This document shows positions 22,712 to 58,760 of a stretch of 64,000 bases of DNA, piece after piece. The notes beneath the pieces are model-generated. The model was given only the letters and a program-made list of their open reading frames with translations, had not been told where the DNA came from and did no database searches. This DNA comes from Acidobacteriota bacterium. Lineage in GTDB: Bacteria; Acidobacteriota; Terriglobia; Bryobacterales; Bryobacteraceae. The translations under genes were made by a program, and so were the position numbers. The first letter of the stretch is position 1. The number at the start of each line of letters is the position of its first letter. The stretch lies in NCBI GenBank assembly GCA_025353165.1, contig JANXRE010000070.1, positions 1 to 64,000 of the forward strand. The letters run 5' to 3'.

Positions 22712-23826
22712 TTCGGTCCGGCTCCAGTACGCATCGTGCTCGCCAGAAAGCCCGCGATCAGAGCCGCTTCCCCGGAGACGTCCACCAGGAACGCGTCGTG
22801 CCCATAATTGGACGGGAGCTCGCAATAGGCCACATCGCGGTTTCTTTTGCGGAGGGCGCTGACGACTTCGAGCGATTGATAACTCGGATAGAGCCAGTCG
22901 GAAGTAAAGCTCAGGACCAGAAATCGCGCGCTGGTGTTCTCCAGCGCGGCCGCCAGCGTCTTGCCCCGCCCGGCGGTCAGATCGAAGTAGTCCATGGCCT
23001 TCGTGATGTACAGATAGGAATTCGCATCGAAGCGGTCGACAAACTGCGTCCCGCGATAGCGCAGGTAACTCTCGACCTCGAAATCGACGTCGAAGTGGAA
23101 CCCGGCCTCGGCCCCGTCCCGCATGCGCCGCCCGAATTTCTCGCGCATCGAATCGTCGCTCATGTAGGTGATGTGTCCCACCATGCGCGCGACCGCGAGT
23201 CCTCGCGCCGGAGGCTTCCCGCCGTAGTAGTCGCCGTTGTTCCAGTCGGGATCGGCCATGATCGCCTGGCGTCCCACTTCGTTGAAGGCAATCTGCTGCG
23301 CGCTGTGCCGCGCCGTGGCCGCGATGGGAATGACCGCCGCGACCGATCGCGGATAAGCCACGCCCCACTCGAGCGCCTGCATTCCGCCCATTGAGCCGCC
23401 CGTAACGGCGAGCAGCCGATCGATCCCGAGATGGTCCACCAGCATCTTCTGCAGCCGCACCATGTCCCCGACGGTCACGACCGGGAATTTCAAGGCGTAC
23501 GGACAACCGGTGGAGGGGTTGATCGAACTCGGGCCGGTGGTGCCGGAGCATCCGGAAAGCACGTTGGAGCAGATCACGAAATATTTGCCGGTATCGAAAC
23601 CCTTGCCGGGCCCCACCATGTTGTCCCACCATCCCGGCGTGCCGGTTTCGGCGTGCACGCCGGCCGCGTGGGCGTCTCCGGAAAATGCGTGGCAGATGAG
23701 GATGGCGTTGGTCCGGCCGGCGTTCAGCTCGCCATAGGTTTCGTAAGCGATATCCACGGGCCCCAGCGACGCTCCGCCGTCGAGCGGGATGGATTCGAAC
23801 CGGGCAAATTGTGTATCGGCAATCAT
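22708..23826 (-). CDS. metX: Homoserine O-acyltransferase MetX
   Basis: A 372-residue alpha/beta hydrolase-fold transferase. The nucleophile Ser145 lies in [14 protein letters not shown], the aspartate in TSDWLYPS, and the histidine in NYGHDAFLV near the C-terminus. It acylates L-homoserine (acetyl- or succinyl-CoA cannot be told apart here) to open methionine synthesis. It heads metX-metW and is divergent from holB with under 60 bp between starts. No SAM riboswitch was seen in that short gap. Confidence 0.93.
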
Positions 23827-23882
23827 TCGGCAGGTTTTTCAACAAGTCTATCAGCCGCGGCGGTCTGCTAAAACGGAAGAGA

Positions 23883-24908
23883 GTGATCCCGAAATTTCAC
23901 GGCAATCCCGGCGTCGCCGCGACGCTGGAAGACATGGTGTCGCGGCGCCGCATTCCGCAGACGATCCTGCTGGACGGCCCGCACGGCATCGGCAAGGCGA
24001 CGCTCGCCCGCCGCTTCGGCTCGCTGCTGATGGACGGCGCGGAGAAGATCGAGAAGGACGACCTCTCGCTGCCGGACAATCTGTCGATCGTCTCCGAGCG
24101 CGAAAAATGGCCCTCGGAAAAGCGCGTGGACGATCCCCTGCTGTTCTCCACCCACCCCGATTTCTTGACGTTCGCGCCCGACGGCCCGCTCCGCCAGCTG
24201 TCCATCCAGCAGATGCGCGTGCTGAAGGAGCGGTCGCAATTCAAGCCGCTGCGCGGGGATTGGCGGGTGTTTCTGATCGACCAGATCGACCGCGCGAACG
24301 AGCAGGCCGCCAATTCGCTGTTGAAGGTGCTGGAGGAGCCGCCTTCGCACTTGATCCTGATACTGACGGCGGAGAATCCGTACAATCTTTTGCCCACGAT
24401 TCGCTCGCGGGCGGTGCCGTTTCATCTGGAGCCCTTAGCGGAGTCCGAGATGCGGCCGTTCATCGCGGAGCGGCACCTGGATCAGCCCGAGCGCAGGCTG
24501 GCCCTGGCGTCGGGAAGCCCGGGAATCGCGATCTCGATGGACCTCGACGCCTACGACAAGCGCCGGTCGGCGATGCTCACGCTGCTGCAGGTGGGCGCAG
24601 GGCAAGCGCCGTTCGCGGAGTGGGCGCGGGCCGGCGAGGCCATCGCCGTACGGAAGACGGAGAAGCTGGACTACTACCTTGACGTGCTCTACGTTCTGCT
24701 GGAGGATCTGCTGCTGCTCCAACAGGGACGGACGCCGATCCGCAATTTCGACGCGCAGGCGGAGCTGGAGGCGATTTCGGCGCGCGTGAGCTTCGAGTGG
24801 ATTCGCAACGCGGTGAAGCGGGTGGACGAACTGGTGGGACTCCTGCGCCGCAATATTCAGAAGAGCATCGCGCTGGACGCGTTCGCGCTGGAGTTGCGCT
24901 CCCGGTAG
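23883..24908 (+). CDS. holB: DNA polymerase III delta-prime subunit
   Basis: A 341-residue clamp-loader protein. GNPGVAATLEDMVSRRRIPQ opens it, GPHGIGKATLARRF is a P-loop-like motif, FLIDQIDRANEQAANSLLKV and LEEPPSHLILIL follow, and TIRSRAVPFHLEPL is the sensor region with the conserved SR. It loads the beta clamp with DnaX and HolA. I chose the GTG at 23883; upstream in-frame sequence would run into the metX promoter region. The last codons, ALELRSR plus stop, recur almost unchanged 0.7 kb downstream at 25600-25623. Confidence 0.88.
   Translation: MIPKFHGNPGVAATLEDMVSRRRIPQTILLDGPHGIGKATLARRFGSLLMDGAEKIEKDDLSLPDNLSIVSEREKWPSEKRVDDPLLFSTHPDFLTFAPDGPLRQLSIQQMRVLKERSQFKPLRGDWRVFLIDQIDRANEQAANSLLKVLEEPPSHLILILTAENPYNLLPTIRSRAVPFHLEPLAESEMRPFIAERHLDQPERRLALASGSPGIAISMDLDAYDKRRSAMLTLLQVGAGQAPFAEWARAGEAIAVRKTEKLDYYLDVLYVLLEDLLLLQQGRTPIRNFDAQAELEAISARVSFEWIRNAVKRVDELVGLLRRNIQKSIALDAFALELRSR
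24885..24908 (+). repeat. Direct repeat at the 3' end of holB, proximal copy
   Basis: The final 24 nt of holB (codons ALELRSR and stop) match 25600-25623 at 22 of 24 positions. The two copies flank the 691-nt hicAB segment. Confidence 0.75.
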
Positions 24909-24919
24909 TCCGTTTTGAC

Positions 24920-25354
24920 TCAAGCCGCGTCGCGCGCTTCGACGTGCAATCGCTTGCCGAACGCGGCGAATGCCGCTTCGATCTGGTCCAGCCGGGAATG
25001 ATGCCGGAGGGAGAACACACGGTCGATATGGGTCTTGGGAATCCCAATGCGGCGCGCAAGTTCTGCCTTCGTCAGGCCCGACTCCAAGAATGCGGCGTAG
25101 AGATCGGCCTTAGCCACCTGCAGGGCGGGCAGGCGCACGTGACGGTATCTCGCGCCGCGGTGGCGCTTGGCCTTTGGTAAGGGCTTGGATTCCCGGATGA
25201 AATCGCCGATGGTCAGCATCAGCAGATCTTGCGCCATCTCCATAGCCTCTGTGCCGGTTTCGCCTTGTGTGACACCGTAGCCGAAATCGGGAAAGGTGAC
25301 GACACAGCCGCCGGCTTTCCGGCCGGGTTCGAATAATGCCAGATCATGTTCCAT
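24920..25354 (-). CDS. hicB: HicB-type antitoxin with C-terminal helix-turn-helix
   Basis: A 144-residue protein. The N-terminal HicB fold (DLALFEPGRKAGGCVVTFPD, FGYGVTQGETGTEAMEMAQD) resembles a degraded RNase H. It is followed by DFIRESKPLPKAK and a C-terminal XRE-like helix-turn-helix (SGLTKAELARRIGIPKTHID). HicB neutralises the HicA mRNA interferase and represses the operon. The start at ATG 25352-25354 overlaps the end of the hicA remnant by a few bases, as in normal hicAB. The antitoxin looks intact while the toxin does not. Confidence 0.85.
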   Translation of the reverse strand: MEHDLALFEPGRKAGGCVVTFPDFGYGVTQGETGTEAMEMAQDLLMLTIGDFIRESKPLPKAKRHRGARYRHVRLPALQVAKADLYAAFLESGLTKAELARRIGIPKTHIDRVFSLRHHSRLDQIEAAFAAFGKRLHVEARDAA

Positions 25355-25520
25355 TTCGGCCCTCACATCTGCTTCGCAGCGTTCCGGTCTTGATTTCCTT
25401 CGCCGGGTGACGGGGCATACGCGAAACCTGTGAGCCAAGGACGATTCGCGTGTGGCGCGATTCATCCACGAACGTGCAGCCATGCTTTCCGAGCCATCGC
25501 CGAAGCTCGCTTGCCTTCCC
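25344..25520 (-). pseudogene. hicA: HicA toxin remnant lacking a start codon
   Basis: A minus-strand frame directly upstream of hicB reads KASELRRWLGKHGCTFVDES, then SRMPRHPAKEIKTGTLRS, the RRWL and MPRHP-x-x-EIK motifs of HicA (an mRNA interferase of about 60 residues with the catalytic His in MPRHP). There is no ATG, GTG or TTG at the proper place: the codon before KASEL is GGG, and none was found further upstream in frame. The C-terminus RCEGRNGT replaces the usual ILKQLGL-type helix. The toxin has probably lost its start and its end. Confidence 0.7.
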
Positions 25521-25569
25521 CTCCCAATGGTTACCACTAGTGGTTACCAGGTCAAACCGCGCTGAAGGA

Positions 25570-25623
25570 GCAATCGCAATTCACAAGCATGAGGTGCCCG
25601 CACTGGAGTTGCGTTCCCGGTAG
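25570..25623 (+). repeat. Second, decayed copy of the holB 3' end
   Basis: In the holB strand this reads AIAIHKHEVPALELRSR and stop. The last seven residues are identical to those of holB and the preceding ones are loosely similar. The core 25600-25623 matches 24885-24908 at 22 of 24 bases. It likely represents the original end of holB before the hicAB segment came in, or a tandem duplication that was later invaded. Confidence 0.65.
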
Positions 25624-25640
25624 TGACACCACGGAAAGCA

Positions 25641-53070: not shown

Positions 53071-54150
53071 ATGCAATATTCGCAAAGGCTGGCCGGGATG
53101 GAGGCGCGCTTCGACGAGCTGACGCTCCAAATGGCCGACCCGGCCGTCATCAACGACTCCGACCTCTACCGCAAGACGACCAAGGCACAGAGCGATCTCA
53201 GCGAAGGGGTTCAGAAGTACCGCGAGTGGAAAGCGGTGCGCGAAAACCTCGATCAGGCGCGCCCGATGCTCCAGGAGTCCGACCCTGAATTGCGCGCGAT
53301 GGCCGAAGAGGAAATCGCCAGTCGCGAGCCGGAACTCGCAAGAATTGAGGACGAGCTGAGGGTCCTGCTACTGCCGAAGGATCCGAACGACGAGAAGAAT
53401 GTAGTTCTCGAAATCCGCGCCGGAACGGGCGGCGATGAAGCGACGCTGTTCGCGGCCGAGGTTTTCCGAATGTACTCGCGTTACGCCGAAACGCACGGCT
53501 TGCGTGTGGAAGTGACGTCGGCGAGCGAATCGTCGGTGGGCGGCCTCAAGGAAGTGATCGCGCTGATCAACGGCAACAAGGTATTCAGCCGGTTGAAATA
53601 CGAAAGCGGCGTGCATCGCGTTCAGCGGGTCCCCGAAACCGAGCAGCAGGGCCGGGTGCATACCTCGGCGATTACGGTCGCCGTGCTGCCCGAAGCCGAG
53701 GAAGTGGATATCCAGATCGAAGCCAAGGACATTCGCGTCGACACGTTCTGCTCGTCGGGCCCCGGCGGCCAGTCCGTGAACACGACTTACTCGGCGGTGC
53801 GCATCACCCACTTGCCCACCAACGTGGTTGTGTCCTGCCAGGACGAGAAATCGCAGATCAAGAATCGCGCCAAGGCGCTCCGTGTTCTGCGGTCCCGCCT
53901 GTACGAACTGGAACTGGACAAACAACGTGAGCAGATCGGCGCGGAGCGGCGGAGCATGGTGGGCACGGGCGACCGCAGCGAGAAGATCCGGACCTACAAT
54001 TTCCCGCAGAACCGCGTAACGGATCACCGCATCGGTCTCACTCTGCATCAACTCGATCAGGTAATGGAAGGCAAGCTGGATCCCATCATCGAAGCCCTCA
54101 CCACGCATTACCAGACTGAGAAGCTGAAAACCCAGACCGAAGCGGCGTAA
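53071..54150 (+). CDS. prfA: Peptide chain release factor 1
   Basis: A 359-residue RF1. It has [18 protein letters not shown], the stop-codon-reading PET (residues 188-190, the P-x-T tripeptide of RF1), and [15 protein letters not shown] with GGQ at 232-234, whose glutamine is methylated by PrmC. It ends translation at UAA and UAG. The modifying enzyme is encoded next. Confidence 0.96.
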
Positions 54151-54152
54151 CC

Positions 54153-55007
54153 GTGACGGTCCGGACGGCGCTTCTGCAGGGCACGCAGCTGCTGGAAGAG
54201 GGCCGCGTCTCGGCGCCAAGGCTGACCGCGGAGGTTCTTCTTTCCCACGCGATCCGGTGCGATCGGTCGTGGCTCTACGCGCACGACAACGAGGAGTTGC
54301 GCGAGGTCTGGTGGATTCACTTCGGGCGCTACCTGCACGAGCGCTTACAGGGCAAACCAACCCAATACATCACCAAAAGGCAGGAGTTCTACGGCCGCGA
54401 GTTCTTGGTGAGCCCCGCCGTTCTGATCCCCCGCCCCGAGACCGAGCACGCAGTCGAGTCGGCGCTGCGCCGGCTGCCGGAATCGCCCGGGACTGTTGTG
54501 GACGTCGGCACGGGTTCCGGAGCCATCGCAATCACGATCGCGCTGGAATCCGGCGCGCGGGTGCAGGCGACCGACCTGTCGGCGGAAGCGCTGGCCGTGG
54601 CGGCCTCGAACGCCCGGAAACTCGGCGCGAGCGTCGGCTTCGTGCAGTGCGACCTTCTTTCTGCGGTCCGCGATTCGTCCGTGCAACTGGTTGTGTCGAA
54701 TCCACCCTATATTCCGGAAGACGACAAGAGCGTCACTCAGCGCGAGGTGCTGGAATTCGAGCCGCACCTTGCTCTGTTTGGCGGCCCGGACGGCATGGAG
54801 ATTTTCCGCCGCCTGGCCGTCGAAGCCGCGCGAGTGCTCCGGCCCGGCGGATGGCTGATCATGGAAGTTGCATACAACGCGGATCGGCGTGTTCGCGACC
54901 TACTCGAGCCGAAGTGGACGAATGTGCAGGTTGAGACGGATCTCGCCGGTTTGCCAAGGGTGGTATCCGCGCAATGGCCGGGGCCCATTGGGGGCGGCAC
55001 TCCGTAG
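54153..55007 (+). CDS. prmC: Release factor glutamine methyltransferase
   Basis: A 284-residue HemK/PrmC enzyme. The N-terminal helical RF-binding domain is followed by YGREFLVSPAVLIPRPETE, the SAM motif VDVGTGSGAIAI and the catalytic NPPY at 183-186. It methylates the GGQ glutamine of RF1/RF2 with SAM. Start is GTG, 2 nt after prfA. Its last codons GPIGGGTP look non-native: the preceding RVVSAQWPG is duplicated before dinB, where the matching frame ends at once with a stop. Confidence 0.93.
   Translation: MTVRTALLQGTQLLEEGRVSAPRLTAEVLLSHAIRCDRSWLYAHDNEELREVWWIHFGRYLHERLQGKPTQYITKRQEFYGREFLVSPAVLIPRPETEHAVESALRRLPESPGTVVDVGTGSGAIAITIALESGARVQATDLSAEALAVAASNARKLGASVGFVQCDLLSAVRDSSVQLVVSNPPYIPEDDKSVTQREVLEFEPHLALFGGPDGMEIFRRLAVEAARVLRPGGWLIMEVAYNADRRVRDLLEPKWTNVQVETDLAGLPRVVSAQWPGPIGGGTP
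54957..54982 (+). repeat. Direct repeat at the 3' end of prmC, proximal copy
   Basis: AGGGTGGT-ATCC-GCGCAATGGCCGGG matches 56099-56124 at 23 of 26 positions. The two copies flank a 1,116-nt accessory segment between prmC and dinB. Confidence 0.75.
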
Positions 55008-55176
55008 CATCTGCCCCGGGGACGCCCGGATCTGATAATCTTCTTGCGATGCCGCTCCTCGACTTTGGGAATCGACGGCACGGGACTGTGCGTCGCTCAT
55101 CTCGTTTTCCAACCGTTCCACGGCCTGTACCATTTCTACGATTTGGGTGCTGGGCCACCGCACCAGGAGGGTTAAT
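54983..55176. other. Start of the inserted segment, no intact gene
   Basis: After the prmC stop there is no recognisable coding or structured sequence up to the GTG at 55177. AGGAGGG just upstream of that codon is its ribosome site. Confidence 0.4.
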
Positions 55177-55643
55177 GTGTCCGACGCGCTGATACAGATC
55201 ATCTCTAGCATTGTGGGTGGAGTTGTCGGCGGCGGGCTGGCCGTGTGGGAGCAATACTGGCTGTGCAGCGTGGGTTCCAAGAATTGGAACGATCAGAGGT
55301 GCGAAGGCAGAAGGTCGATTGCATCATCAAGCTTTTCGGGTTGCGGTTCGTGATCGGGGTGGGTTTCCCAGTCAGCGACCCACAGCGGGAATCCCTGATG
55401 TTCGAGATGAACAGGATCGCTGCGTAGTATAGCGATGATTCCGATGTGCAGCGACATCTGCGGGACTTCTTTCAGAATAGGACAAACGAAAGGCTGATAA
55501 CTGTATTAAGGAGCATGTCCCGTACGACTAAACTCACGCTCGACGCCCTCAGTGACGCAGACATCACCAACGTATTCCTGATGTTCCCTTCAGGTTGGCC
55601 TACCGGACCGGTGAGCGTCGGTAACTTAAAGATAAGGATGTGA
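55177..55643 (+). pseudogene. Decayed small membrane-anchored protein (DUF6680-like)
   Basis: From GTG 55177, preceded by AGGAGGG, the frame reads SDALIQIISSIVGGVVGGGL plus AVWEQYW, a membrane anchor. The sense then shifts frame near 55245-55265 to FQELERSEVRRQKVDCIIKL and FGLRFVIGVGFPVSD, meets an in-frame TAG at 55425-55427, and continues in the same frame with YSDDSDVQRHLRDFFQNRTN, MSRTTKLTLDALSDADITN to a stop at 55643. One frameshift and one nonsense change break a protein of about 150 residues. The likeness to DUF6680-type proteins is a recollection. Confidence 0.65.
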
Positions 55644-55655
55644 GGGGCCACTTTT

Positions 55656-55943
55656 ATGGATTTCCATTTCCAAGGCGTCCAATACCTTCAAGGTCAGCTT
55701 GCGGTGGTCGGCTCCATCGTTGCAGAGGATAGCGCACGGATCCCTCTATACCTACCTGCGGCGTACGCCCATACCATGGGATGCGCTCTGATTGAACTGG
55801 CTGTTCTCGCTCAAGAACGAGAGGCAGAACTCCGCCGGACGGGCCAAGTGCTCGATGTGAACACCATGGTTGCCGAGTTCGGTGCGAGGGTGAGTGCCCG
55901 CTTGAAGCTGAACGGCTCGGATGCTACCGTAACGCCGACCTGA
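55656..55943 (+). CDS. Small hypothetical protein
   Basis: A 95-residue frame: MDFHFQGVQYLQGQLAVVGS, RIPLYLPAAYAHTMGCALIE, then a helical LAVLAQEREAELRRTG and VAEFGARVSARLKL. It has no signal peptide. It follows the decayed gene by 12 nt and may have been its operon partner. AGGGG lies 14 nt upstream, further than ideal. I do not recognise it. Its survival beside a broken partner makes it worth checking. Confidence 0.45.
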   Translation: MDFHFQGVQYLQGQLAVVGSIVAEDSARIPLYLPAAYAHTMGCALIELAVLAQEREAELRRTGQVLDVNTMVAEFGARVSARLKLNGSDATVTPT

Positions 55944-56098
55944 TTGGAAGCTGATGCGTGGCCGGCACCGGCCTGGTAGAGCGTCGGCGGGTATTCCAAG
56001 GGAGATCACGGAGGCTGCCGGCCCAAGCAAACCGGGTCGGCGTCAGATGTCGCTACAATGATTTACGAACGAAGAAAGACAATCGCGATTTCTAGCAG
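55944..56098. other. Rest of the inserted segment, possible dinB promoter
   Basis: No gene seen. TACAAT at 56054-56059 could be a -10 element for dinB about 60 nt upstream of its start, but no good -35 lies at the right distance and no clear SOS box was found. Confidence 0.3.
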
Positions 56099-56124
56099 AG
56101 GGTGGTCCCTGCGCAATGGCCGGG
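56099..56124 (+). repeat. Direct repeat spanning the dinB start, distal copy of the prmC end
   Basis: AGGGTGGT-CCCT-GCGCAATGGCCGGG. Read in the prmC frame it gives RVVPAQWPG and then TGA at 56126-56128. The dinB ATG (56116) lies inside it. This looks like the ancestral prmC end overlapping the dinB start. Confidence 0.7.
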
Positions 56125-57363
56125 CTGAAGACGATCTTTCATATCGATATGGACGCGTTCTTCGTGTCCGTTGAGGAATTGTTTGATCCGTCTCTCAAGG
56201 GCAAGCCGGTCGTGGTCGGGGGGCAGGCGAATGAGCGCGGCGTCGTTTCCGCGGCCTCGTACGCTGCCCGGAAATATGGCGTTCATTCGGCCATGCCGCT
56301 TCGCACCGCCTATAAACAATGCCCACACGCTATCTTCGTCGATGGCCACCCGCATCGCTACCGCGAGTATTCCGGAAAGGTCTTCGAGGTCCTGAACCGT
56401 TTCTCGCCCCGCGTTGAGATGGCGTCCATCGACGAAGCCTACATCGACGTGACCGGGGCCGAGCGCCTGCTCGGGCCTCCGCTCGTCGCGGCGCACGCGC
56501 TGCACCGGGCCGTGAAGCGCGACACTGACCTGAACTGCTCGATCGGGGTTTCGACGTCGCGCCTCGTTTCGAAGATCGCTTCCGATCAGGCGAAGCCGAA
56601 TGGCGTTCTCTGGATCATGCCCGGAATGGAGGCGCGGTTCCTGGCGCCGCTCGATGTCCGAAAGGTCCCCGGCGTCGGCAAGGTGGCCGAGAAGAACCTG
56701 AATGCGGTCGGCATTCGCAAGGTCGGCGATCTCGCGGCGCTCGACGAGCGGTTCCTTGAACAGCACTTCGGGAAATGGGGGCTGGCGCTCGCGGGTAAGT
56801 CGCACGGACTCGACGCGGGAGCCTGGTTCCACGGCGAGGTCGGCGATGAGACCGACGCGAAGTCCATCAGCCACGAGCACACGTTCAACGAGGATACGGC
56901 CGACGCCGATGCGCTCGAAGCGATGCTGGCCCGCCTGTCCGGGATGGTCGCGCGGCGGCTGCGCGAGAGCGGACTATTCGCGCGGACCATTCAGTTGAAG
57001 CTGCGATATTCCGACTTCAAGACCTACACGCGCGCGCACACTCTGGATCACCCGACACAGCTCGACATCGACGTGCTCAACGAGTCCCGCCGGCTGTTCC
57101 GCCGCGCGTGGACAGGCGCGCCGGTGCGGCTGCTCGGTGTCCACGCGGGAGGACTGCAGGAAACGGAAGGGCAGATGAACCTGCTCGAAGGCGAACGCAC
57201 AGAGCGTTGGCGCAAAGCGCTCGAAGCCGTGGACCGCATGCGCGATAAGTTCGGCGAGTCCAGCCTTTCCCTGGGGACCGGCATGAAGAGCCGCTTCCGC
57301 GAACGCGTGCACGAGAATCCCGCGAGCCTGCCGGGGAAGGGTCACCGCCCGGCAAAAAGCTGA
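56116..57363 (+). CDS. dinB: DNA polymerase IV
   Basis: A 415-residue Y-family polymerase. FHIDMDAFFVSVEELFDPSL carries the first metal aspartates, YREYSGKVFEVL the nucleotide-binding part, MASIDEAYIDVTGAERL the catalytic DE, then VPGVGKVAEKNLNAVGIRKV (helix-hairpin-helix) and the little-finger domain. It lacks the extreme C-terminal beta-clamp motif QLxLF in standard form, though QMNLLEG near 355 may serve. It performs error-prone lesion bypass. Confidence 0.94.
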   Translation: MAGLKTIFHIDMDAFFVSVEELFDPSLKGKPVVVGGQANERGVVSAASYAARKYGVHSAMPLRTAYKQCPHAIFVDGHPHRYREYSGKVFEVLNRFSPRVEMASIDEAYIDVTGAERLLGPPLVAAHALHRAVKRDTDLNCSIGVSTSRLVSKIASDQAKPNGVLWIMPGMEARFLAPLDVRKVPGVGKVAEKNLNAVGIRKVGDLAALDERFLEQHFGKWGLALAGKSHGLDAGAWFHGEVGDETDAKSISHEHTFNEDTADADALEAMLARLSGMVARRLRESGLFARTIQLKLRYSDFKTYTRAHTLDHPTQLDIDVLNESRRLFRRAWTGAPVRLLGVHAGGLQETEGQMNLLEGERTERWRKALEAVDRMRDKFGESSLSLGTGMKSRFRERVHENPASLPGKGHRPAKS

Positions 57364-57371
57364 CATGGTTA

Positions 57372-58760
57372 TTATCCGGCGGTGATGCGGGCGGCGGCTT
57401 CGCGGCCCATTCTGACGCAGTCGGGGATTCCGATTCCGGTGTAGCCGTTGCCGGCCAGGTGCAGGCCTGGAGCCGCCGCGACGCGCGCTTCGATTTGTTT
57501 CAGCCGGGCCTGGTGGCCTACCGTGTATTGCGCCATCGAGCGCGGCCAGCGGGCTACGTGATGGAACAGCGGCACGGCGGAGACTTTCATGATGCGGCGA
57601 ACTTCCTGGCGCGCGATCCGCACCACCACTTCGTCGGATTCGTCCAGGATCGCGGCGTCGTTCGCGCCACCGAAGAAACAGCGCAGCATCACGAGGTCGT
57701 CGGGAACGCGATGCGAGAACTTGTTCGCCACCCAGGTGCAGGCCACCAGGCGATTGCGTTCCTTGCTCGGAACCAGAAAACCGAAACCGTTCAGCGGGTG
57801 GCCGAAACTTGCCTTGTCGTAGCCGAGCGCCAGGGTCAGCGAGGAAGTGTAGGGAACGGCATCCAGCAGTGCGCCGAGACCGGGGTCGAAGGATCCGATC
57901 AGCGCGGCGGCGGAGTACGCCGGGCACGCCAGGATCACGTGATCGGCGTCGAGCCATTCGCCGTCCACGCGTACGCGGTAGCCGCCGGGCGTGCGCTCCA
58001 CCGTTTCGGCTTCGCCGCGCAGGACGGCGGTGGAAGACTCGATCCGGCGCTCAAGCTCCCCGACCATCTCGCCGAGGCCGCCTTTCAACGTTTGGAACAA
58101 CGGCAGTTTCTGCCCGCCATTGGCGCGCGATTTCGACATGGTGGCGAGGACGCCGCGGGTGAGGCTACCGTATTTCTGCTCGAGTTCGACGAAGCGGGTG
58201 AGGACGCTGGCAGCGCTGAGCTGGGCGGGATCGCCTCCATAAATGCCGGAGAGCAGCGGTTCGGTGAGGTAATCGAGGGACTCGTCGCCGTAGTGGTCGC
58301 GAATGAAAGCGGCGACGGAGCGGTCGTGCTGGGGCAGCGACGGGGGCTGCCGCAGGTACTCGAGGCCCATGCGGATTTTGGTGCCCCAACCGAGCAGCGG
58401 CGTGGAAAGGAGCGGACGGATGCGGGTGGGCACCATCATCATGAGGCCGTCCGGCAAAGGCACGAGCCGGCCGCCGCGCCAGATGTAGGTGACACGGAGA
58501 TGATCGTTGGAACCGATCAAATCGCCGCCGAGCCCGATTTCCTGAATAAGCTCGGTAGCGGCGGGCTTAATGGCGATGAAGCTGTCGGGGCCCGCTTCCA
58601 GGACGCAGCCTTCGACGCGCTCGGTTTGAATGACGCCACCCAGCCGTGGGCGCCGTTCGATGAGAGTGGAGCGGACACCGGCCTTGGCCAGAAACCAAGC
58701 GGCGGAGAGACCCGAGATGCCGCCGCCCACGATCACGACTTTGGGCTGGTCTCCGGGCAC
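57372..58760 (-). CDS. hemY: Protoporphyrinogen oxidase (FAD-dependent)
   Basis: A 462-residue flavoprotein. The FAD motif VVIVGGGISGLSAAWFLAKA opens it, then RPRLGGVIQTERVEGCVLEA and AGPDSFIAIKP, and a C-terminal GNGYTGIGIPDCVRMG that closes the FAD site. It oxidises protoporphyrinogen IX to protoporphyrin IX with oxygen in haem synthesis. Start is GTG 58758-58760, sharing one base with the hemE stop. hemH, the usual next partner, is not seen between the two. Confidence 0.92.
   Translation of the reverse strand: MPGDQPKVVIVGGGISGLSAAWFLAKAGVRSTLIERRPRLGGVIQTERVEGCVLEAGPDSFIAIKPAATELIQEIGLGGDLIGSNDHLRVTYIWRGGRLVPLPDGLMMMVPTRIRPLLSTPLLGWGTKIRMGLEYLRQPPSLPQHDRSVAAFIRDHYGDESLDYLTEPLLSGIYGGDPAQLSAASVLTRFVELEQKYGSLTRGVLATMSKSRANGGQKLPLFQTLKGGLGEMVGELERRIESSTAVLRGEAETVERTPGGYRVRVDGEWLDADHVILACPAYSAAALIGSFDPGLGALLDAVPYTSSLTLALGYDKASFGHPLNGFGFLVPSKERNRLVACTWVANKFSHRVPDDLVMLRCFFGGANDAAILDESDEVVVRIARQEVRRIMKVSAVPLFHHVARWPRSMAQYTVGHQARLKQIEARVAAAPGLHLAGNGYTGIGIPDCVRMGREAAARITAG

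Follow-up and report, generated by a model that had tools for sequence, protein, structure and literature searches.

A 1.1-kb foreign-looking insert has very probably split an overlapping prmC-dinB gene pair in a Bryobacteraceae genome, with 26 bp of the junction now on either flank

In an Acidobacteriota bacterium of the family Bryobacteraceae, an ancestral pair of overlapping genes, prmC and dinB, has very probably been split by a 1.1-kb foreign insert that now has 26 bp of the junction at each end. The locus lies in a window of 64,000 nt, the whole stretch of DNA that was analysed; G000 denotes the genome of the window, while other G and L numbers denote compared genomes and loci, respectively. 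On the forward strand of the window, prmC, which encodes the release-factor glutamine methyltransferase, occupies 54153..55007 (NCBIfam TIGR03534, 271 bits against a cut-off of 199.1), and dinB, which encodes DNA polymerase IV, occupies 56116..57363 with its start codon preserved (NCBIfam NF002677, 326.8 bits against a cut-off of 256). The event is recorded in a flanking repeat, a compact junction in relatives, a homologous stop codon and a lengthened prmC end.

The repeat consists of two direct copies on the forward strand. The left copy (AGGGTGGTATCCGCGCAATGGCCGGG, 54957..54982) lies inside prmC, and the right copy (AGGGTGGTCCCTGCGCAATGGCCGGG, 56099..56124) represents the former prmC 3' end and both abuts and overlaps the dinB start. 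The copies are spaced 1142 nt apart and are identical at 23 of 26 positions, as had been reported in an earlier, sequence-only reading of this DNA. In dinucleotide shuffles of positions 53800-57600 (n = 300), the top 26-mer match between any two places reached 18-22 positions, and shuffles in which just the prmC end was compared with the dinB start reached 12-18, so that the observed 23 stands above all 300. The pair is also the single one of its kind in the 5.77-Mb assembly: a search with AGGGTGGTNNCNGCGCAATGGCCGGG at up to three mismatches returned just the two junction copies, and the reversed control of AGGGTGGTNNCNGCGCAATGGCCGGG gave 0 matches across the whole assembly. Within the 64-kb window, three pairs no more than 5 kb apart match at 23/26, the prmC|dinB pair being one of them. 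Two further pairs of direct repeats, each about 26-28 nt long, are 24218/25558 and 24883/25598 (window 24218-25625), and both match at 23/26; their first copies fall within an ORF (23811-24908) that we take to encode a DNA polymerase III delta'-like protein, and their second copies fall beyond it.

All three mismatches between the junction copies fall on the same flank of a 14-nt block that matches perfectly. The left copy codes for VVSAQ, and serine is found at that site in eight other rows of the comparison, with alanine the commonest residue and proline in no row. This pattern points to the right copy, released from its role in prmC, as the one that diverged. By eye, the clustered mismatch ATCC/CCCT creates a self-complementary AGGG-TGGT-CCCT that could reflect a single templated mutation.

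The right copy, read in the prmC frame, gives RVVPAQWPG followed by a TGA at 56126..56128 (forward strand). The sequence-only reading had proposed that prmC, relieved of the 1.1 kb, would end in precisely this way and overlap the dinB ATG at 56116, and the frames are as it claimed. This former prmC stop now lies in dinB codons 4-5 and ends 17 nt ahead of the dinB DMDA codons. The present protein ends in ...RVVSAQWPGPIGGGTP; its final seven codons (PIGGGTP) and stop lie within the insert, the new stop falling 21 nt further on. Counted from the start of the PRV motif to the stop, the restored frame holds 10 residues and the present protein 17. Among 21 compact rows the median distance from PRV to the end is 10 residues, and it is exactly 10 in 13 of the 21 (the motif search gave no placement in L090 and a wrong place in L087). 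The view that GPIGGGTP is an acquired tail is therefore sound as to the lengthening and one residue too generous as to its extent: the first G already closes the restored end, which leaves a gained tail of the seven residues PIGGGTP. A PrmC end of equal length was encountered once among the 30 prmC loci, in G057 (L013), where a Gly/Thr-rich NAGTGGTFPA closes a protein with 17 residues from PRV. This end counts against an acquired tail, although the DNA downstream of the G057 prmC does not resemble the insert, with 111 of 200 shuffles scoring equally high; the G057 contig stretch is short and ends ahead of any dinB.

The junction was then read in relatives. PrmC had a match in 148 of the 151 genomes searched, and 84 of 91 yielded DinB at E ≤ 1e-60 (G000 counted in both); the junction could be read where one fetched locus held both genes, namely in 37 genomes, 32 of them of the same family including G000. 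This sample is uneven, being composed of the 30 best prmC matches, the 30 best dinB matches and 20 regions, mostly chosen for gene closeness. Among the linked family genomes, the junction measures at most 24 nt in 20 of 32, with an exact 4-nt overlap in 13 of 32, and it is wider in the remaining 12, G000 included (55-3080 nt). Five linked genomes outside the family show a -4 overlap in one case and spacings of 87-2195 nt in four. Around the best dinB matches, 80 named loci were also taken, several of whose genomes are common to the family set; 23 of them have prmC upstream of dinB, of which 17 are compact and 10 have the -4 overlap. The other 57 have no prmC in the stretch, which indicates that linkage is often absent or that contigs end too soon. 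In 12 of the 13 exact-overlap genomes, dinB starts at the codon equivalent to the G000 CTG at 56125, and thus their prmC stop is homologous to the TGA at 56126-56128. G000 itself starts dinB at the ATG at 56116, three codons (MAG) earlier than most relatives, as do G001, G010 and G029.

The same picture emerges from a 400-nt query of the joined flanks. It matched 202 of 237 family genomes, via dinB alone in most rows listed, and the joined flanks align unbroken in at least 13 other family genomes (G028, G089, G296, G024, G035, G011, G272, G031, G026, G086, G162, G259 and G238 among the matches listed), whereas in G000 the alignment is split in two. At least 140 query bases to the left of the join, on the prmC side, are covered in 10 of the 13 one-piece alignments listed. 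Nine one-piece loci, six of them new to the census, were read directly and all are compact; the TGA lies exactly 17 nt ahead of the DMDA codons in seven of the nine and 21 and 24 nt ahead in the others, and the 17-nt spacing holds for five of the six new genomes. The homologous stop, the -4 overlap in 13 of 32 genomes and the PRV distance of 10 residues together bear out prmC directly overlapping dinB as the ancestral state. The forecast of an empty site in relatives held, with qualifications: the compact junction is there in 20 of 32, but a prmC ending in AQWPG was seen in none of the relatives examined, and the sole congener compared, G001, is not empty, carrying a 551-bp gap that differs from that of G000 and has no significant flanking repeat. 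For this reason, the empty site of this particular genus is one that we infer.

The inserted segment itself spans 1116 nt (54983..56098, forward strand) and has a GC content of 56.6%, compared to 65.2% in prmC and 64.4% in dinB. It is foreign-looking and apparently decaying DNA. What appears to be a small broken gene, hydrophobic at its start (55177..55643, forward strand), begins at a GTG at 55177, changes frame at about 55250, meets a TAG at 55425-55427 and reaches a later stop at 55641-55643. As its pieces are without relatives, we infer rather than observe that they once formed one gene. Twelve nt past the preceding stop lies an intact orphan ORF of 95 aa (55656..55943, forward strand), whose GC3 is 0.61 compared to 0.79-0.81 in prfA, prmC and dinB, and whose structural model is a three-helix fold of low confidence (mean pLDDT 63.9). 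Shine-Dalgarno-like sites were noticed at 55166-55176 and 55643-55655, one per small ORF (by eye, GGAGGG at 55166-55171 ahead of the GTG and AGGGG at 55643-55647), and with such a sequence ahead of both, the two ORFs look like a former two-gene operon. The cargo has presumably decayed since its insertion.

Searches of the insert ORFs against Pfam, NCBIfam, PHROGs and PADLOC gave nothing better than E 0.06, and thus no recombinase was found in the insert; transposase and integrase were likewise absent from it in these four collections. This agrees with the ORF reading and with the earlier description of a segment holding a broken small membrane protein gene and one small ORF but no recombinase. 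An Rfam scan of the insert found no match up to E 1. Relatives of the 95-aa ORF were absent from the viral contigs, genome contigs and plasmids searched, as were those of the 132-aa read-through of the broken gene from phages and plasmids. In 297 genomes of the phylum, the read-through has three non-self matches, the best of which (E 3.4e-5, 34% over 65 aa) sits in a 91-aa ORF beside what is presumably a cytochrome-c-biogenesis gene, and the other two are weak (E 0.003-0.005). The 95-aa ORF has five weak matches (E 0.002-0.008), four of them in frames of more than 900 aa. In all these searches no credible relative of either ORF emerged. At the DNA level, a search with a threshold of E ≤ 0.001 recovered G000 alone among 237 family genomes; the same 1.1-kb cargo, which the earlier reading advised looking for behind other genes, was thus found in none of the other 236. 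The best other match in its own genome has E = 0.02 over 60 nt.

These features can be placed in a simple history. In an ancestor of the Bryobacteraceae type, the prmC TGA would have lain inside the first dinB codons, the two genes overlapping. A 1.1-kb foreign piece would have entered this overlap with 26 junction bases remaining on each flank, such that the left copy would hold prmC in frame, with seven codons and a stop read from the insert, and the right copy would preserve the dinB start plus the bases immediately ahead of it. Because the frames overlap, an insertion would leave both genes intact only where the overlap became duplicated or one of the genes recruited a new start or stop, and a flanking repeat is thus one footprint to be expected of a survivor. 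With 26 junction bases on both sides, prmC and dinB both stayed readable. The repeats themselves could be a target duplication or the remnants of attachment sites.

By what route the DNA entered is a separate matter. We tentatively favor, at a little less than an even chance, a single illegitimate insertion event at a staggered break, through Ku-type end joining or some transposase. Ku is encoded in the G000 genome. Against this reading, a target duplication of 26 bp would be long by transposon standards. Transposons and IS elements likewise come to lie between direct repeats of their target sequence; the G000 insert differs from them in having no transposase match and, among the repeat pairs listed, no inverted-repeat pair at its ends. 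The further copies to be expected of such an element were found neither in its own genome nor in the 236 other family genomes (E ≤ 0.001). The main alternative to a one-off illegitimate insertion, and a somewhat unlikely one, is a decayed site-specific element resembling a CIME, in which a tyrosine-recombinase element would have used the prmC 3' end as its target, the repeats would be attL and attR with a putative GCGCAATGGCCGGG-like core, and the integrase would have been lost or supplied in trans. Tyrosine-recombinase elements have repeats of 8-60 bp and often occupy the 3' ends of housekeeping genes (PMC5704250), a range and a targeting preference that the 26-nt repeat fits. The same text describes CIMEs as decayed ICEs or IMEs that keep attL and attR (PMC5704250), and G000 resembles them in its flanking direct repeats, in the placement of these where a housekeeping gene ends (3') and in an insert in which no integrase was found; it departs from them in that its insert is just 1.1 kb, its target end is lengthened, and neither a related integrase-bearing element nor evidence of mobility was found. 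The mismatches, confined to one side of the 14-nt block, would be expected if one arm were element-derived, and nine integrase-domain matches, eight of them above the cut-off, occur elsewhere in the genome. However, no integrase was found in the insert or among six Pfam-scanned ORFs from the inserts of relatives, no further att-like copy exists in the assembly, and the prmC end was lengthened rather than exactly restored (17 versus 10 residues from PRV).

An import by homologous, Campbell-type recombination is improbable, although incoming and perhaps circular DNA bearing a related prmC 3' end could have recombined by short homology and the three clustered mismatches could then be donor differences present from birth. 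The lack of any DNA match to the insert in the 236 other family genomes (E ≤ 0.001) leaves no donor visible, and the roughly 20 nt of homology would be short for RecA recombination. That the repeat is a chance similarity, or the locus an assembly chimera, is barely credible: the assembly is in 200 contigs, but the locus is interior to a 104-kb contig and surrounded by prfA, prmC and dinB, the shuffles never reach the observed match, and the right copy coincides exactly with the former prmC end as placed by homology.

G000 is not alone in having a widened junction. In a dinB tree of 38 rows, a gap of 782 nt stands beside one of 3 nt and a gap of 281 nt beside a -4 overlap, both with good support, and gaps of 769 and 87 nt adjoin two -4 rows, again with good support. 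Gapped rows of 2022, 1820 and 3080 nt form a cluster, and an ABC-transporter ORF is common to two of them (G053 and G002), indicating that the gaps are not all separate events; G000 itself takes no resolved placement among the 38 rows. The junction cargo of other lineages includes a dual-specificity phosphatase, a WapI-like immunity protein, DUF433, PadR and a DinB_2-domain protein. By Pfam, the dual-specificity/tyrosine phosphatase gene lies at L032:2380-2892 (G010), the WapI-like gene in L022 (G075) and the DUF433 gene in L132, which has two -4 overlaps among its tree neighbors. Separately, record L113, titled Bordetella parapertussis, bears a prmC-dinB locus of the Bryobacterales type, and its title looks mislabelled.

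Among 14 gapped loci examined for a flanking repeat, G000 alone is significant (0/300 shuffles), the other 13 giving p values of 0.067-1.0; a general rule of duplication is thus unsupported. In G022 the 8-nt TGAAGACC occurs at both homologous places (p 0.087). A test with wider flanks, from which L055/L094, L075/L093 and L086 were left out since gaps under 120 nt produce self-overlap artefacts, gave p 0.025 for G053 (12 nt, 11/12 identical) and 0.59 and 1.0 for two loci outside the family. An AG[A/C] directly after the stop in four of six gapped TGA-ending rows is possibly, and only suggestively, a vestige of the earlier dinB start; among the named loci it follows the prmC TGA in L121 and is absent from L132. 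It is quite improbable that the overlap is a recurrent landing site into which small accessory genes, such as the phosphatase, WapI-like and DUF433 genes and pairs of orphans, enter by a shared integrase-less route with overlap duplication as its footprint. Were this true, an essential and a non-essential gene that overlap would have been prised apart repeatedly at the Bryobacteraceae prmC|dinB junction.

The split may also bear on dinB expression. The prmC/dinB junction of relatives is of the same -4 overlap type as the gene pairs in which, according to Huber et al. (2023, PMC10666635), engineered spacers of about 20 nt almost abolish translational coupling. By this measure dinB in G000 should be uncoupled from prmC, and it is probably no longer translated in dependence on it; the spacers in that work are engineered whereas G000 presents a natural insertion, and the coupling of prmC to dinB is itself presumed. 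A consensus scan for a dinB promoter inside the insert returned 0 candidates. A TACAAT at 56054-56059 within the insert was noticed by eye.

Literature searches on CIMEs, insertions into overlaps, end joining, and prmC, dinB or Solibacter left this junction undescribed among the titles and abstract openings of the matches listed. As a genome change the event is of a familiar kind, here well preserved. It records, like a fossil, a way for foreign DNA to settle in a tight operon with an important gene left whole, the overlap ending up on both sides of the newcomer. As the accessory genes at the prmC/dinB junction differ by lineage within one family, the Bryobacteraceae offer sister pairs for studies of uncoupling.
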